64,000 nt of DNA, from contig NZ_MKSM01000138.1 in assembly GCF_001897285.1 (NCBI RefSeq), positions 1-64,000 on the forward strand. The letters are read 5' to 3'. The DNA comes from Nitrobacter sp. 62-23 (GTDB taxonomy: Bacteria; Pseudomonadota; Alphaproteobacteria; Rhizobiales; Xanthobacteraceae). The position numbers and the translations under genes are program-made. Within the stretch, counting starts at the first letter, position 1, and each line of letters begins with the position of its first letter. This document shows, piece after piece, positions 23,854-58,450 of this stretch. The notes beneath the pieces are model-generated. The model saw only the letters and a list, made by a program, of their open reading frames with translations. It had not been told where the DNA came from and made no database searches.

Positions 23854-26016
23854 ATGAACAGGACCGTCTTTTCCCTTCCCGCGCAAAGCGAGTACGCGAC
23901 CGCCGGCGGTCTCGCCGTCAGCAGGTCGATCGAGCATTTTACCGGCGGCAGGCGGCTGGACGACCTGATCGACCTGCTCGACCGCCGTCGCGGCCTGGTG
24001 CTGTCGTCGGGCACCACGGTGCCGGGACGCTATGAGAGTTTCGACCTCGGTTTCGCGGATCCGCCGCTCAGGATCGAAACCACGGGTCTGAATTTTTCCA
24101 TTGAAGCCACCAATGCCCGCGGCGAGGTGCTGATCGCCTTTCTGGGCGAGGCCCTGAGCGAGCCTTTTGTGGTTGTCACCGAAAGCACCGCGCTCCGCAT
24201 CGCCGGCCACATCGTGCGCGGCGATGCGCCGGTGGAGGAGGATCAGCGCACCCGGCGCGCCAGCGTGATGTCGCTGGTGCGCGCGCTGGTCGCGGCGTTC
24301 GCATCAGACGCCGATCCCATGCTCGGGCTCTACGGTGCGTTTGCCTATGACCTCGTGTTCCAGATGGAAGACCTGGTGCAGAAGCGCGCGCGCGAGGCCG
24401 ACCAGCGCGACATCGTGTTGTTCGTGCCCGACCGTTTGCTGGCTTACGACCGCGCCACCGGCCGCGGCGTCGTGCTGTCCTATGATTTCGCGTGGAACGG
24501 CCGCTCGACCGCGGGCCTGCCGCATGACACGCCGGAAAGCGTCTACGCCAGGACGGGACGGCAGGGTTTCACCGATCACGCTCCCGGCGAATATCAGGCC
24601 ACGGTGGAGACGGCGCGCGCCGCGTTCGCGCGCGGCGACCTGTTCGAAGCGGTGCCCGGGCAGTTGTTCGCCGAGCCCTGCGAACGCTCGCCGGCCGAAG
24701 TGTTTCAGCGGCTGTGCCGGATCAATCCGTCGCCCTATGGTGGTCTTGTCAATCTCGGCGACGGGGAATTCCTGGTTTCCGCTTCCCCGGAAATGTTCGT
24801 ACGCAGCGATGGCCGCCGGATCGAGACCTGTCCGATCTCCGGCACCATCGCGCGCGGCGCCGATGCCATCGGCGACGCCGAGCAGATCCGCGAGCTGCTC
24901 AACTCGGAGAAGGACGAGTTCGAGCTCAACATGTGCACCGACGTCGATCGCAACGACAAGGCACGCATCTGCATGCCGGGAACGATCAAGGTGCTGGCGC
25001 GACGCCAGATCGAGACCTATTCGAAGCTGTTTCACACCGTCGATCACGTCGAGGGCATTTTGCGGCCCGGTTTTGACGCGCTCGACGCGTTTCTCACCCA
25101 CGCCTGGGCGGTGACGGTGACCGGCGCGCCCAAGAAGTGGGCGATGCAGTTCGTCGAGGACAACGAGCGTTCGGCGCGGCGCTGGTATGCCGGCGCGTTC
25201 GGCGTCGTCGGCTTCGACGGCTCGATCAATACCGGCCTGACCATCCGCACCATCCGCATGAAGGATGGACTGGCCGAGGTGCGCGTCGGCGCGACCTGCC
25301 TGTTCGACAGCAAGGCGGAGCTTGAGGATCGCGAATGCCAGACCAAGGCGGCCGCGCTGTTCCAGGCGTTGCGCGGCGACGCGCCGAAGCCGCTTTCGGC
25401 GGTGGCTCCGGACGCGACCGGCTCCGGCAAGCGCGTGCTGCTGATCGATCACGACGACAGTTTCGTGCATATGCTGGCGGATTATTTCCGTCAGGTCGGC
25501 GCACGCGTCACGGTGGTGCGCTACGTCCACGCGCAGGACATGCTGAACACGCAGACCTACGACCTGCTGGTGCTGTCGCCCGGTCCCGGCCGGCCCGAGG
25601 ATTTCGGCATGGCCAAAACCATCGGCACCGCGCTGGAGAAGAAACTGCCGGTGTTCGGCGTCTGCCTCGGCGTGCAGGGAATCGGCGAGTATTTCGGCGG
25701 CCGGCTTGGCCAGCTCGCGCAACCGGCGCACGGCCGTCCCTCACGCGTGCAGAATCGCGGCGGACGCTTGATGCGCAATCTGCCGAACGAGATCGTGATC
25801 GGCCGCTATCATTCGCTGTATGTCGAGCGCAACGGCATGCCCGACGTGCTGGAGGTGACGGCGACCACCGACGACGGCGTGCCGATGGCGATCGAGCACA
25901 GGACGCTGCCGGTCGGCGGCGTGCAGTTTCACCCCGAATCGCTGATGTCGCTCGGCGGCGAGGTGGGCTTGCGGATCGTGGAGAATGCGTTCCGGCTGGG
26001 GCAGGGAGATAGCTGA
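23854..26016 (+). CDS. trpE(G): Anthranilate synthase, fused TrpE-TrpG
   Basis: A 720-residue fusion that converts chorismate plus glutamine to anthranilate, the first step of tryptophan synthesis. Residues 1 to about 515 are the TrpE component (NPSPYGGLVNLGDGEFLVSA, CPISGTIARG, DVDRNDKARIC). Residues from about 525 to 720 are the TrpG glutamine amidotransferase, with catalytic Cys604 in FGVCLGVQG and a VQFHPESL triad segment. The fusion is typical of Rhizobiales. Expression is controlled by the trpL attenuator just upstream; feedback inhibition by Trp is known for the family. Confidence 0.96.
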   Translation: MNRTVFSLPAQSEYATAGGLAVSRSIEHFTGGRRLDDLIDLLDRRRGLVLSSGTTVPGRYESFDLGFADPPLRIETTGLNFSIEATNARGEVLIAFLGEALSEPFVVVTESTALRIAGHIVRGDAPVEEDQRTRRASVMSLVRALVAAFASDADPMLGLYGAFAYDLVFQMEDLVQKRAREADQRDIVLFVPDRLLAYDRATGRGVVLSYDFAWNGRSTAGLPHDTPESVYARTGRQGFTDHAPGEYQATVETARAAFARGDLFEAVPGQLFAEPCERSPAEVFQRLCRINPSPYGGLVNLGDGEFLVSASPEMFVRSDGRRIETCPISGTIARGADAIGDAEQIRELLNSEKDEFELNMCTDVDRNDKARICMPGTIKVLARRQIETYSKLFHTVDHVEGILRPGFDALDAFLTHAWAVTVTGAPKKWAMQFVEDNERSARRWYAGAFGVVGFDGSINTGLTIRTIRMKDGLAEVRVGATCLFDSKAELEDRECQTKAAALFQALRGDAPKPLSAVAPDATGSGKRVLLIDHDDSFVHMLADYFRQVGARVTVVRYVHAQDMLNTQTYDLLVLSPGPGRPEDFGMAKTIGTALEKKLPVFGVCLGVQGIGEYFGGRLGQLAQPAHGRPSRVQNRGGRLMRNLPNEIVIGRYHSLYVERNGMPDVLEVTATTDDGVPMAIEHRTLPVGGVQFHPESLMSLGGEVGLRIVENAFRLGQGDS

Positions 26017-26061: not shown

Positions 26062-26104
26062 CTGCTCCCCTCTCCCTTGTGGGGAGGGGTTGGGGGTGGG
26101 GTTA
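26062..26104. repeat. CCCTCCCC-type repeat E3
   Basis: Contains CTCTCCCTTGTGGGGAGGGG followed by TTGGGGGTGGGGTT. It is a relative of the elements at 55681 and 56114. A further imperfect copy lies just to its right, up to about 26172, filling the trpEG-apt gap. Confidence 0.6.
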
Positions 26105-26203: not shown

Positions 26204-26743
26204 ATGGTCCTTGAAGACGATCTGAAAGCCGCTGTCCGCACCATTCCGGATTATCCAAAGCCGGGGATCATGTTCCGCGACATCACCACGCTGCTTGGAG
26301 ATGCCCGCGCGTTCCGCCGTGCGGTCGATCAGCTCGTGCATCCCTGGGCGGGCTCGAAGATCGACAAGGTCGCAGGCATCGAGGCGCGGGGTTTCATTCT
26401 CGGCGGCGCGGTGGCGCATCAGGTCTCCGCCGGCTTTGTGCCGATCCGCAAGAAGGGCAAGCTGCCGCATCAGACCGTGCGGATGGCCTACGCGCTCGAA
26501 TACGGCACCGATGAAATGGAGATGCACGTCGATGCCATCGCCAAGGACGAGCGCGTCATTCTGGTCGACGACCTGATCGCCACCGGCGGCACGGCGGAGG
26601 GCGCGGTGAAGCTGCTGCGCCAGATCGGCGCCAATGTGGTGGCGGCCTGCTTCATCATCGACCTGCCGGACCTCGGCGGCGCCGCCAAGCTGCGCGCGAT
26701 GGACGTTCCGGTGCGGACGCTGATGGCGTTCGGCGGACACTGA
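26204..26743 (+). CDS. apt: Adenine phosphoribosyltransferase
   Basis: A 179-residue type I phosphoribosyltransferase that salvages adenine to AMP using PRPP. The PRPP-binding motif [13 protein letters not shown] is near residues 119-131, and the family start ([18 protein letters not shown]) and [15 protein letters not shown] are clear. It is separated from trpEG by repeats, so it probably has its own promoter. It is convergent with the ParA-like pair. Confidence 0.95.
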
Positions 26744-40455: not shown

Positions 40456-40605
40456 TGTTGCGTGCTCCGGACGCGATGCAATACCAGAGTATTGCTTCGC
40501 AGAGCCGGAGCCGTTGCGAGCGATCAGATCCTTAACGATCCCGGCTCTGCGGTGCACCGTCGACGAGACGTTGCACCGCGTCCAGGACACGGGGAATTAA
40601 GTGCC

Positions 40606-41169
40606 ATGCCGTCCATCGACGAGACAAAAGCCTTCGTTCCGCTCAACATCGCGGTGCTGACGGTATCCGATACGCGCTCGCTCGCTGATGATAAATCAGG
40701 CACGACGCTGGCGGAGCGGTTAACCGCCGCCGGTCACAAGCTCGGCGCGCGCGAGATCGTCACCGACGACGTCGAGGCGATCCGCGCCGTCATCAAAAGA
40801 TGGATCGCCGACGCGGGCATCGATGTCGTCATCACCACGGGCGGGACCGGGTTCACCGGGCGTGACGTCACCCCCGAGGCCGTCGAGCCGCTGTTCGAGA
40901 AGCGGATGGACGGTTTCTCGGTCGCCTTCCACATGATGAGTCACGCCAAGATCGGCACCTCGACGATCCAGAGCCGCGCTACCGCCGGCACCGCGGGCTC
41001 GACCCTCGTCTTCTGTCTGCCCGGCTCTCCGGGCGCCTGTCGCGACGGCTGGGACGGCATCCTGGCGCCGCAGCTCGATTACCGCACCCGTCCCTGCAAT
41101 TTCGTCGAGATCATGCCGAGGCTCGATGAACATCTGCGCCGGCCGAAGGCCAGGGGCGCCTCGGTCTGA
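40606..41169 (+). CDS. moaB: Molybdenum cofactor biosynthesis protein B
   Basis: A 187-residue MoaB/Mog-fold protein. It starts at the ATG at 40606 (MPSIDETKAFVPLNIAVLTV); the frame extends upstream only through a repeat. Molybdopterin-binding motifs are TTGGTGFTGRDVTPEA and the later TLVFCLPGSPGAC. It acts in molybdopterin adenylylation or an equivalent step. It stands apart from other moa genes here. Confidence 0.92.
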   Translation: MPSIDETKAFVPLNIAVLTVSDTRSLADDKSGTTLAERLTAAGHKLGAREIVTDDVEAIRAVIKRWIADAGIDVVITTGGTGFTGRDVTPEAVEPLFEKRMDGFSVAFHMMSHAKIGTSTIQSRATAGTAGSTLVFCLPGSPGACRDGWDGILAPQLDYRTRPCNFVEIMPRLDEHLRRPKARGASV

Positions 41170-54462: not shown

Positions 54463-54685
54463 ACCCGGCTGGGACGGGCGCGCGAACGGCTTTGCCCGTG
54501 GCCGGACCGCCATGAAAAGCGGGCACCGATATCTACAGGTCCGGCGGTGAGACCGGCGGACTGGGTTGTGCGCGCCGTCATCGCTGGAATGCCGGCTTTG
54601 GTAGCGCTTGTTCCGCCATCGCTTGATTTGGGTTTCTCCGGCCGATACGGTCCCCGCGCATTCACCCGAATCTCCGACAAGTCCG

Positions 54686-55633
54686 ATGGATACCCAGCCT
54701 CCGCACATGCGCCCGGAACGCTCGTTCCAGGGCTTGATCCTGACCCTGCAACGCTACTGGGCGGACTATGGCTGCGTGATTTTGCAGCCCTATGACATGG
54801 AGGTGGGGGCGGGCACCTTCCACCCCGCGACCACGCTTCGCGCACTGGGGCCGAAACGGTGGAACGCGGCCTATGTGCAGCCCTCGCGCCGTCCCAAGGA
54901 CGGCCGCTACGGCGAGAATCCGAACCGCCTGCAGCACTATTATCAGTTCCAGGTGATCCTCAAGCCGTCGCCGCCGGACATCCAGGACCTCTATCTGAAA
55001 TCCCTGGCCGCGATCGGGGTCGACAGCGCGCTACACGACATCCGCTTTGTCGAGGACGACTGGGAAAGCCCGACGCTGGGGGCGTGGGGTTTGGGGTGGG
55101 AGTGCTGGTGCGACGGCATGGAAGTCAGCCAGTTCACGTATTTCCAGCAGGTGGCGGGCGTCGAATGCGCTCCGGTGGCGGGTGAACTCACCTACGGGCT
55201 GGAGCGGCTGGCGATGTTCGTGCAGGGCGTCGACCGCGTCTACGATCTCAACTTCAACGGCCGCGAGGGCGCCGACAAAGTGAGCTACGGCGATGTGTTC
55301 CTGCAGGCCGAGCAGGAATATTCGCGGCATAACTTCGAGCACTCCGACACCGCGATGTTGTTCGAGCAGTTCAGGATGGCCGAAAGCGCGTGCAAAACAT
55401 ACCTCGACGCCGGCTGGCAGGACGATCCGAAGCAGCCCGGCAAGCACGAGGCGCACCTGATGGCGCTGCCGGCCTACGACCAGTGCATCAAGGCGAGCCA
55501 CGTCTTCAATCTGCTCGACGCGCGCGGCGTGATCTCGGTGACCGAGCGGCAAAGCTACATCCTGCGCGTGCGCGACCTGGCGAAGGCCTGCGGCGAGGCG
55601 TGGCTCCATACCGAAGCGGGCAGGGCGGGGTGA
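54686..55633 (+). CDS. glyQ: Glycyl-tRNA synthetase alpha subunit
   Basis: GlyQ (315 aa from the ATG at 54686; an ATG at 54707 is possible) forms the catalytic part of the alpha2beta2 glycyl-tRNA synthetase. Conserved runs are [51 protein letters not shown] and [15 protein letters not shown]. It is followed not directly by glyS but by a 550-bp insert holding a DUF559 gene between inverted repeats. Confidence 0.96.
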
Positions 55634-55680
55634 GCAATTGTATCGAAGTCGGAATGAGCGGAAGCGGGGGTGTGGGCTTT

Positions 55681-55754
55681 CACCCTCCCCTTGAGGGGGA
55701 GGGTCGGCGAGCTTGCAGCGCTCTTGCGCGCATGAGCGAGCCGGGGTGGGGTGC
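55681..55754. repeat. CCCTCCCC-type repeat E1
   Basis: CACCCTCCCCTTGAGGGGGAGGGTCG, a variable loop, then CCGGGGTGGGGTG. The element at 56114-56168 is the same in inverted orientation. The two flank the DUF559 gene between glyQ and glyS. Confidence 0.85.
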
Positions 55755-56188
55755 ACTCCGTGATCAAAAGGACGGTTAGTGATTTCAAACGCCAGTCTGC
55801 AAGACGCTTGCGGTCCGACAGTACGAATGCCGAAGCAGTTCTCTGGCGTCATCTTCGCCAGCTTAATGTGAAAGGAAGTCATTTCAGACGGCAGGCCGTG
55901 ATTGGTCCCTACATTGCAGACTTCGCCTGTCTGGCAGCGCGGCTGATTATCGAGGTCGACGGATCACAGCATGGAACGGATGGCGGCAAACGTCGCGACG
56001 ATGCCAGAACGCGCTGGCTGAATGCAGAAGGTTATCGTGTGCTGAGGTTCTGGAATAACGACGTTATGAACAAACCGAAGTCTGTGATGGAAGCAATTTA
56101 TCGGGCGCTTGATGTCACCCCACCCCGCCTGCCTCCGGCAGACGACCCTCCCCCTCAAGGGGAGGGTGGACTTCTGCGCTCGGAGTAG
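55751..56188 (+). CDS. DUF559 endonuclease-domain protein
   Basis: A 145-residue protein with a DUF559 (Vsr/PD-(D/E)XK-related) domain: ARRLRSDSTNAEAVLWRHLR, GSHFRRQAVIGPYIADFACL and LIIEVDGSQHGTDGGKRRDD, the last two carrying the catalytic acids. GYRVLRFWNNDVMNKPKSV closes the fold. It is probably a DNA nuclease of unknown target. The start lies at the right end of repeat E1, and the last 25 residues (from TPPRLPPADDPPPQGEGG) are translated from repeat E2. The gene and the inverted repeats look like one inserted unit separating glyQ from glyS. Confidence 0.8.
   Translation: MHSVIKRTVSDFKRQSARRLRSDSTNAEAVLWRHLRQLNVKGSHFRRQAVIGPYIADFACLAARLIIEVDGSQHGTDGGKRRDDARTRWLNAEGYRVLRFWNNDVMNKPKSVMEAIYRALDVTPPRLPPADDPPPQGEGGLLRSE
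56114..56168. repeat. CCCTCCCC-type repeat E2
   Basis: Inverted relative of E1: CACCCCACCCCG ... CGACCCTCCCCCTCAAGGGG AGGGTG. It lies within the end of the DUF559 reading frame and stops 24 bp before glyS. Confidence 0.85.
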
Positions 56189-56191
56189 CGA

Positions 56192-58450
56192 ATGCCCGAT
56201 CTTCTGCTTGAACTATTCTCCGAGGAAATTCCCGCGCGCATGCAGGCGAAGGCGGCGGACGACCTGCGCAGGCTTGTCACCGACAAGCTGGTCGCCGAGG
56301 GTCTCGTCTATGAAGGCGCGAAAGCCTTCGTCACGCCGCGCCGCCTCGCGCTCACGGTGCACGGCGTCCCGCTGCGTCAACCCGATCTCAAGGATGAGCG
56401 CAAGGGACCGAAGGTCGGCGCGCCCGACGCTGCGGTGCAGGGATTCCTGAAGGCGGCCGGATTGAAATCGCTGGATGAAGCCAAGATCCAGCGCGATCCG
56501 AAGAAGGGCGATTTCTACGTCGCGCTGATCGAGAAGCCTGGTCGTCCGGCGATCGACGTGCTCGCGGAATTCCTGCCTGTGATCGTGCGCACCTTTCCGT
56601 GGCCGAAGCAGATGCGCTGGGGCGAGCGTTCGGCCAGGCCCGGCGCGCTGACATGGGTGCGGCCGCTGCATTCGATCGTTGCCACCTTCGGCATGGAGAC
56701 CGAGGAGCCGGACGTGGTGTCGTTCGAGGTCGCCGGCATCAAAGCCGGGCAGGTAACGCGCGGTCACAGGTTCATGGCGCCGGACGAATTCAGCGTGCGC
56801 CGCTTCGAGGATTACGAAGCGAAATTGCAGGCGGCGAAGGTCGTGCTCGATCCGCAGCGACGCAAGGACATCATCCTCGCCGACGCGAAAGATCTGGCGT
56901 TCGCGCAAGGCTATGAGCCGATCGAGGATCAGGCGCTGCTTGACGAGGTCGCGGGCCTCGTTGAATGGCCGGTGGTGCTGATGGGCTCGTTCGACAAGGA
57001 ATTTTTGTCGATACCGGGCGAGGTGATCCGCGCCACCATCCGCAACAACCAGAAGTGTTTTGTCGTCAACGATCCGAAATCCGGCAAACTCGTCAATCGC
57101 TTCATTCTCGTCGCCAATATCGAGGCGAGCGACGGCGGCAAGGCGATCGTCGCCGGCAATGAGCGCGTGATCCGCGCGCGGCTGTCGGACGCGAAGTTCT
57201 TCTACGAGACCGACCTGAAGACCAGGTTGGAAGACCGGCTACCGAAGTTCGAGCAAATCGTGTTTCATGAAAAGCTCGGCACCCAGGCCGAGCGGATCGC
57301 GCGCATTAAGGCTTTGGCGCGCGTGATCAGTGAGCGGCTTCAAAAGTGGGATCAGGTCGTTCGTCCTCGTTATCAAGACACAACCAAAAACTTCTTTAAT
57401 GATGTTCAGAGGGCTGCCGAATTAGCCAAAGCCGATCTGCTCACCGAGGTCGTCGGCGAATTCCCCGAGTTGCAGGGCCTGATCGGAAAATACTACGCGC
57501 TCGCGCAGGGCGAGAATGCATCCGTCGCCGCGGCGTGCGAGGAGCACTACAAGCCGCAGGGACCGAACGACCGTGTGCCGAGCGATCCCGTCTCGATCGC
57601 GGTGGCGCTCGCCGACAAGATCGACACGCTGGTCGGGTTTTGGACGATCGATGAAAAGCCGACGGGATCGAAGGATCCCTATGCGCTGCGAAGGGCAACG
57701 GTTGGCGTAATCAGGCTGGTGCTGGAAAATGGGATACGGCTTTCGTTCACTCCATTGCTCTCACAACACCAGAGTATCATCCATGAGCAAGTGCACGGAA
57801 CAAAGACTGTCTTTGATACCGTCAAGGATAGCCAAGGAGATATCGATCTGGTGAATCCGAGATCGGTTCCGGTTGAGCCAGAGCTGATATCAAACCTTCT
57901 CGCCTTCTTCGCCGATCGCTTAAAAGTTCAGCTTCGCGAGCAGGGCGCGCGGCACGATCTGGTCGATGCGGTGTTTGCGCTTGGCAATAGGGATGCCGAA
58001 GGTAATCCCGTCTTGGAAAATGCTCAGGACGACCTCCTCATGATCGTCCGCCGCGTCGAGGCGCTCGGAAAATTCCTCGACACCGACGACGGCAAGAATC
58101 TTCTGGCCGGCACCAAGCGCGCGTCCAACATCCTCGCCATCGAGGAGAAGCGGGATAAGCGCACGTTCGACGGCGCGCCGGACGCCTCGCTTTACAGGCT
58201 CGACGAAGAGAAGTCGCTCGCAAAGGCCGTCGATGGAGCAAAGCGCGAGGCGAGTGCCGCCGTGGCCAACGAGGACTTCGCCGCCGCCATGGAGGCCATG
58301 GCGACACTGCGCCCCGCAGTCGACGCCTTTTTCGACAAGGTGAAGGTCAACGACGACAAGCCCGAGATCCGTGAAAATCGCCTCAAGCTGCTCAACGAAA
58401 TTCGCGCCGCGACACGCACGGTCGCGGATTTCTCCAGGATTCAGGATTGA
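56192..58450 (+). CDS. glyS: Glycyl-tRNA synthetase beta subunit
   Basis: GlyS (752 aa) is the tRNA-recognising subunit. Family blocks are [69 protein letters not shown] and [20 protein letters not shown], each given here in part. Two stretches are lower in GC and use unlike codons: about 57340-57420 ([19 protein letters not shown]) and 57710-57900 ([20 protein letters not shown]). By hand count 57721-57840 is about 48% GC against about 65% in an upstream line. The protein seems some 50 residues longer than relatives I recall. Confidence 0.94.

Follow-up and report, generated by a model that had tools for sequence, protein, structure and literature searches.

A 488-nt block (positions 55681-56168) separates glyQ from glyS in Nitrobacter sp. 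62-23 and consists of a DUF559 gene between two inverted ends, E1 and E2. Its architecture, the recurrence of this architecture in many bacterial groups, the matching of left and right ends and their covariation with the protein are supported by the data, as are gene-less doublets and presence/absence polymorphism at glyQ-glyS. The block is likely to be a co-mobile unit, in which the DUF559 nuclease would act on its own folded ends and host repair would complete the move; recognition, cleavage and mobility are inferred.

Organization of the glyQ-glyS locus

The window (the whole 64,000-nt stretch analysed, positions 1 to 64,000 of contig NZ_MKSM01000138.1) contains the following features:

26067..26101, + strand: gene-less solo module (palindrome at 26067-26089 and tract GGGGGTGGGG at 26092-26101, joined by a 2-nt linker)
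54686..55633, + strand: glyQ, upstream neighbour (PF02091, TIGR00388)
55681..55753, + strand: left end module E1, 73 nt, inverted repeat of E2
55683..55703, + strand: E1 outer palindrome CCCTCCCCTTGAGGGGGAGGG (palindrome pattern match and end layout)
55704..55742, + strand: E1 linker hairpin, 39 nt (a similar linker, that of L084 in G006, folds end to end)
55743..55751, + strand: E1 inner purine tract GGGGTGGGG, which mirrors the purine arm (T in place of A)
55751..56188, + strand: DUF559 Vsr-like PD-(D/E)XK nuclease gene (PF04480, 7e-39; start GTG at 55751 or 55760)
56116..56168, - strand: right end module E2, 53 nt, inverted, inverted repeat of E1
56118..56126, - strand: E2 inner tract, GGGGTGGGG on the - strand (end layout)
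56127..56145, - strand: E2 linker hairpin, 19 nt (end layout)
56146..56166, - strand: E2 outer palindrome (palindrome pattern match and end layout)
56192..58450, + strand: glyS, downstream neighbour (PF02092, TIGR00211)

Each end has three parts: a palindrome CCCTCCCC-TTGAG-GGGGAGGG, a linker and an inner tract GGGGTGGGG. The outer 26 nt of E1 and E2 form a perfect inverted repeat (55681-55706 / 56143-56168), and a second, imperfect inverted pair (85%) joins 55734-55753 to 56116-56135. Inverted similarity between the two flanks stops about 4 nt outside the palindromes, and this point is taken, by inference, as the element boundary. A palindrome pattern derived from the element itself, with up to 3 mismatches allowed, has 5 matches in the window against 0.01 expected in window shuffles; four of the five are the two strands of E1 and E2. 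Rfam gave no match across 54500-57000 at E <= 1. The solo triplex-type module at 26067-26101 sits between the ORFs 23854-26016 and 26204-26743.

The first-pass annotation, made from the sequence alone, had described a DUF559 gene that is bounded by inverted repeats and splits glyQ from glyS. This held, on the evidence of inverted-repeat, PF04480 and neighbour matches, with small corrections. The description of E1 and E2 as inverted copies is only partly right: palindrome and inner tract are identical, whereas the linker hairpins differ in sequence and length (39 vs 19 nt). The gene was said to start at one repeat, and it does begin just inside E1, but at the inner end of the module and not at its outer edge. 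It was also said to end inside the other repeat, which failed, the frame reading through E2 to a stop codon 20 nt beyond it. The last 25 residues had been called repeat-derived; about 18 of the last ~25 are encoded by E2. It seems possible, though only by inference, that the inner tract of E1 doubles as a ribosome-binding site. Among 58 two-ended elements (see below), a start codon lies 2-20 nt after the left inner tract in 30; the stop codon lies beyond the right module in 45, within it in 4 and ahead of it in 9.

The nuclease

The window protein belongs to the DUF559 Vsr-like PD-(D/E)XK family by profile, conserved residues and fold, while nuclease activity itself is inferred. Its PF04480 score is 132.5 bits (E 7e-39) against a curated cut-off of 20.6, and D57, E68, D70, H74 and D83, conserved acidic and histidine residues which we take to be catalytic, are among the residues invariant in 47 sequences. 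The structure model (pLDDT 86) has its best fold match in NGO0050 (3HRL, E 1.4e-7) and its next in the homing endonuclease I-Bth0305I (E 1.2e-3); a sequence-profile search agrees with both. Vsr is weaker among the fold matches (ranks 9 and 10, E 0.025 and 0.061), and some mitochondrial ribosome proteins match the model at similarly weak E-values. Matches in PHROGs are weak and are to endonuclease families. Many relatives also contain longer ORFs (about 400-470 aa) carrying a second kind of DUF559 match.

Two other identities were rejected: phage or plasmid cargo, since the protein has matches at E <= 1e-5 in just 3 phage and 44 plasmid records, and a defence system, PADLOC matches being weak and all to much longer proteins.

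A further possibility is that this is a housekeeping mismatch-repair gene of the Vsr type, as proposed for Caulobacter VsrA, and that the flanking repeats are irrelevant. In its favour, cells lacking ScmA require VsrA, a protein with a DUF559 domain, for their SOS response (PMC12907096), and Vsr does appear, weakly, among the fold matches. However, the gene is patchily present and multi-copy, it is placed between co-directional operon genes, and modules flank most of the loci examined. We consider this reading very unlikely.

Recurrence of the flanking modules

PF04480 was found in 47 of 61 relatives, often in several copies. Of 84 matches with E <= 6.3e-26, 81 were studied (80 other loci and that of the window); G007:C881, G055:C1:1052358 and G059:C1448 were left out, as were weaker matches, many of them in ORFs of more than 400 aa. 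A Y/R palindrome lies within 600 bp of the DUF559 gene in 75 of the 81 loci and on both sides in 58. For the 78 loci with at least 300 bp of flank on each side, 57 have palindromes within 250 bp on both sides, against 0 of 2008 control windows from the same stretches, and 72 have at least one, against 45 of 2008. The control windows are mostly coding, which somewhat flatters the contrast. Within the order, palindrome density at DUF559 loci falls from 6.08 per kb within 150 bp to 0.03-0.09 beyond 600 bp. At one locus (L131, G009:C226) the palindromes are repeated upstream of the gene, six within 540 bp.

A broader set was drawn from a scan of one genome per species in 84,980 species, with 80 of 573 confirmed relatives kept. 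One of them, L237, probably duplicates L091 from the first set, since its contig has the same length and it occupies the same place there. Where the title is informative, over half are Alphaproteobacteria. Others belong to Beta-, Gamma-, Delta- and Zetaproteobacteria, Nitrospirae, Chloroflexota and Binatia, and the set also spans Marinimicrobia, Planctomycetota, Bipolaricaulota and Gastranaerophilales. The full module (palindrome and mirror tract) occurs within 300 bp in 69 of the 80 loci, and on both sides in 48; of the 11 loci without it, a palindrome is nevertheless present in 7, and 2 are located at the end of a contig. The density, 6.18 per kb up to 200 bp away, drops to 0.07-0.17 beyond 800 bp. 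Each of eight loci read from a plasmid collection (two Deinococcus, Synechocystis, Azospirillum, Sinorhizobium, Sphingomonas, Klebsiella, Shinella) has, on inspection by eye, palindromes of this type on at least one side. The layout is not uniform, since in the copies from Deinococcus and Synechocystis the tract appears, again by eye, outside the palindrome.

DUF559 genes elsewhere are thus usually flanked by the same kind of repeat. Genes that never were, or relatives with the gene and no repeats, had been named as refuting the idea of a mobile unit; relatives of the latter kind exist but are few by the definitions used (6 of 81 and 11 of 80), and neither observation refutes it.

At the genome level, the palindrome is present in every one of the 39 genomes whose DUF559 hit is strong (E <= 1e-24), with a median count of 33 per genome. 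The pattern used genome-wide covers the common 23-nt type, which a pattern with a fixed 5-nt loop misses. From such counts it can be inferred that only a small share of intergenic regions carries a palindrome. Genomes without a strong hit still have palindromes in 13 of 22 cases, with up to 78 copies in one. The co-occurrence is significant (Fisher p 2.9e-5; outside the element's own family, Mann-Whitney p 0.001), with shared ancestry ignored in these tests.

Matching of the ends to the nuclease

The ends belong to their nuclease: the left and right ends of one element match, other elements of the same genome have different ends, and end and protein sequences covary. These comparisons, like the first mirror test below, used only the 58 elements with palindromes found on both sides (116 modules). 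The mean edit distance between left and right palindromes is 1.60 within an element and 5.16 between elements; between different elements of one genome it is 5.43. Protein and palindrome distances are correlated across the 58 elements (Mantel r 0.345, p 0.001), and the correlation persists when only comparisons between genera are kept (r 0.318, p 0.001). Two sister nucleases of one genome (L098 and L116), 62% identical, have the same left palindrome at two places.

These data bear on a second reading, in which the modules belong to the host, as terminators, mRNA stabilisers or instability elements, and DUF559 genes settle, survive or are expressed best beside them. The palindromes in 13 of 22 genomes without a strong DUF559 hit speak for it, as does the occurrence of BoxC-like places without the gene in 5376 of the 5426 E. 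coli genomes searched (E <= 10). Against it stand the inverted two-sided arrangement (57 of 78 loci), the left-right identity of each element and the covariation of protein and ends; moreover, earlier work cited in PMC4666352 found no promoter or terminator activity for such motifs. There is little to recommend this explanation, and the co-mobile unit remains the preferred one.

Gene-less copies

The genome of the window contains six palindrome pairs without a gene, 124-156 nt long, on contigs C10, C31, C41, C123 and C128 (two); most keep both inner tracts. BLAST searches also found gene-less units in other members of the genus. At two doublet sites, congeners have only a solo palindrome, partly decayed: in G001 at a helicase-like site (uvrD-like by eye), and in G001 and G003 at the other. 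Such lone palindromes may be what excision left behind, products of recombination or an earlier state of the site. No target-site duplication was seen at glyQ-glyS or at the two doublet sites, where the flanks have diverged. One doublet (L197, G000:C128, about 40526-40653) lies, by eye, inside a reading frame for a uvrD/pcrA-type helicase, the place at which G001 has a solo palindrome.

Dispersed inverted palindrome doublets without a gene are a criterion for REPIN-like elements, and it is met. The units might therefore be suspected of belonging to a REP/RAYT (REPIN) system whose transposase lies elsewhere, DUF559 being a passenger. The layout is indeed similar, with inverted palindrome doublets, a linked gene and gene-less doublets (PMC3116915). 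However, no Y1_Tnp (HUH, RAYT-type) transposase was matched in the window's genome at E <= 0.001, and the ends are Y/R motifs of triplex type. A Y1 transposase is present in 15 of the 61 genomes and is unrelated to palindrome number (p 0.60). Membership of a REP/RAYT system was rejected on the absence of a Y1_Tnp match and this lack of relation, and can be regarded as all but excluded.

Occupancy of glyQ-glyS and other junctions

The first-pass annotation had proposed that clean glyQ-glyS junctions be sought in relatives. They are present: in four congeners (G003, G004, G005 and G008) the two genes are separated by a clean 3-nt gap, and the proposal of a mobile unit is not refuted on this point either. 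A readable glyQ-glyS junction was obtained for 43 of 60 glyS loci, and 9 of the 43 hold a DUF559 element (G000, G006, G002, G007, G012, G032, G034, G035 and G055), in every case oriented as glyS. Upstream of glyS in G027:C92 (L160) there is a 518-nt gap from glyQ with module-like sequence, and no PF04480 match is listed there.

The nucleases of G000 and G006 on the one hand and of G002 and G007 on the other fall in different parts of the nuclease tree and have different palindromes, and glyQ-glyS has therefore probably been occupied at least twice within one genus. This is an inference, and the data also allow a single origin: the glyQ-glyS label must change 3 times on the full tree, yet only 1 change is forced by the strongly supported branches alone. 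The tree rests on 108 columns and a quick search and is weakly resolved. Judged by flank similarity, recurrent sites among the 81 loci are glyQ-glyS (9), pheS-pheT (9), the position after cysS (7) and nuoD-nuoE (at least 2).

A recurrent insertion site with clean empty alleles is a criterion for homing genes, and glyQ-glyS meets it. The strongest rival explanation is a free-standing homing endonuclease, which would cut empty alleles at conserved operon junctions and be copied in by recombination, the palindromes being incidental or serving expression. It is supported by the recurrent sites at glyQ-glyS, at pheS-pheT and after cysS, apparently with more than one lineage per site, by the clean empty glyQ-glyS junctions and the shared direction of all 9 occupants, and by I-Bth0305I being the nearest solved relative outside DUF559. 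Homing, however, needs no terminal palindromes, and here the ends match and covary with the protein; moreover, doublets that have ends of this kind but no gene occur at scattered sites. On balance, homing alone is an unlikely account compared with a unit that carries its own ends.

Triplex-type anatomy of the modules

The first-pass annotation had not recognized that the ends are compound modules of triplex type, of the kind of E. coli BoxC, nor that gene-less doublets are dispersed. Of the 116 modules, 3 lack an inner tract (leaving 113 for linker analysis) and 8 lack a tract or a usable arm (leaving 108 for the mirror test). When the inner tract is compared with the purine arm, T being allowed for A, the mirror run is longer in 62 of 108 modules, the direct run in 2, and 44 are tied. 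In a stricter test of 255 asymmetric arms, both strands counted, with gene ends approximated for most broader-set loci, 59 arms have a mirror match and 33 a direct match, against 11.1 for permuted arms; 42 are mirror-only and 16 direct-only (sign test p 0.0009). The mirror relation of tract and arm is a real preference, but not an exclusive one.

Linkers fall into two length classes, 2-5 nt (48 of 113 modules) and 14-57 nt (65 modules), with none of 6-13 nt. The long ones fold end to end in 63 of 65 cases, with a mean energy of -13.5 against -6.6 for shuffled sequences; since an end-to-end span also occurs in 0.73 of shuffles, the energy is the informative number. Short and hairpin linkers alike may bring arm and tract together. 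It is possible in principle for the module to fold on a single strand, as a hairpin and then a purine-motif triplex; for the ends in the window, triplex formation is inferred.

An intrastrand triplex motif is defined by a Y-loop-R hairpin with a mirror third strand on the R side, and this criterion is met. The 1-6 nt loop of a 2015 survey (PMC4666352) is not, the linkers in the window being 39 and 19 nt long, and the ends may be viewed, on sequence grounds, as a long-linker variant of this motif (BoxC/PIT/TM). BoxC/PIT/TM repeats have been known in E. coli since the 1990s and have been tied to genome instability. According to the survey, MG1655 has 23 BoxC copies and five inverted pairs; the E. 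coli motif forms a stable triplex in vitro, with no sign of a triplex in vivo. Variability is raised around the copies, no mobility function was found in their surroundings and their spread was left unexplained (PMC4666352).

BoxC-like places were found in 5376 of 5426 E. coli genomes, with a median of 19 (76-base query, E <= 10). In E. coli K-12 the DUF559 gene ycjD adjoins fabI, with a BoxC-like module between them. At this locus (L134), the gap between the two genes also holds a partial repeat of the ycjD 3' end, with a degenerate palindrome on one side and the BoxC-like module on the other. A long perfect inverted repeat, CACCTCATTCTGACA...TGTCAGAATGAGGTG, unlike the GC-rich modules, immediately precedes the ycjD start.

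A model for the proposed mobile unit

In the proposed mechanism, a Vsr-like PD-(D/E)XK (DUF559) gene would be carried between two inverted copies of its recognition module. The nuclease would most likely recognize the folded module when it is single-stranded, during replication or repair, and would cut at or near it. The final step would fall to host repair, joining the unit into a new place or copying it there, in many cases an operon junction. On this view the elements without a gene, both doublets and solo modules (BoxC/PIT/TM), would be non-autonomous derivatives mobilised in trans, or what is left of them. PD-(D/E)XK enzymes hydrolyse DNA and do not rejoin it, and integration would for this reason need host factors.

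The claim of a small mobile unit, with a nuclease travelling with its own palindromic ends, is thus supported. Against it count the absence of any observed transposition, excision or cleavage, the lack of a target-site duplication in the diverged flanks, the loci without the signal as defined here (6 in 81 and 11 in 80) and the palindromes in 13 of 22 genomes without a strong DUF559 hit. Recognition, cleavage and mobility rest on inference only, as do a role for the triplex and the idea that different lineages have occupied one site repeatedly.

A bolder reading, for and against which the arguments seem to us evenly weighted, is that these units form a separate class of mobile elements in many phyla, in which a lone Vsr-like nuclease would recognize triplex-forming ends and spread both itself and gene-less triplex motifs. 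The BoxC repeats of E. coli would then be non-autonomous members and YcjD the resident nuclease. If true, this would possibly be the first transposition system to read a DNA triplex. The link between DUF559 and BoxC provides a testable agent for the spread of BoxC/PIT/TM repeats. It also suggests what a nuclease family that is widespread but little characterised, and to which ycjD of E. coli K-12 belongs, may do. The elements also offer a case in which triplex-forming DNA may serve as a recognition signal.

Comparison with known systems

NGO0050 (3HRL), E. coli YcjD and Caulobacter VsrA are, like the window protein, members of the DUF559 family, but no link between them and flanking triplex motifs appears in the literature searched, and VsrA has been proposed for mismatch repair (PMC12907096). 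The open-access literature, searched incompletely and mostly without subscription papers, contained no paper joining DUF559 to BoxC, PIT or triplex motifs; such a link may be in print. The Vsr-like homing endonuclease I-Bth0305I (3R3P) is nearest in solved fold and in sequence outside DUF559. However, it is annotated as a mobile-intron protein, whereas the elements described here have palindromic ends. MITEs are also short gene-less units with inverted ends, but no target duplication was found for the present units, whose flanks have diverged.

REPIN-RAYT systems (PMC3116915) share inverted palindrome doublets, gene-less copies and a repeat type tied to the linked enzyme. They differ in the enzyme, a Y1 HUH transposase there and a Vsr-like PD-(D/E)XK nuclease here; in the present elements, the ends are Y/R palindromes with a mirror tract and the gene lies inside one pair of ends. 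In BoxC/PIT/TM_ECO repeats, by comparison, the linker is 2-5 nt long, whereas it is a hairpin of 14-57 nt in 65 of the 113 modules examined here, and the module here flanks a nuclease gene where PMC4666352 gives no linked mobility function. The anatomy is nevertheless shared part for part, with a Y arm, a loop, an R arm, a linker and a mirror purine third strand, in dispersed copies that occur both singly and as inverted pairs.
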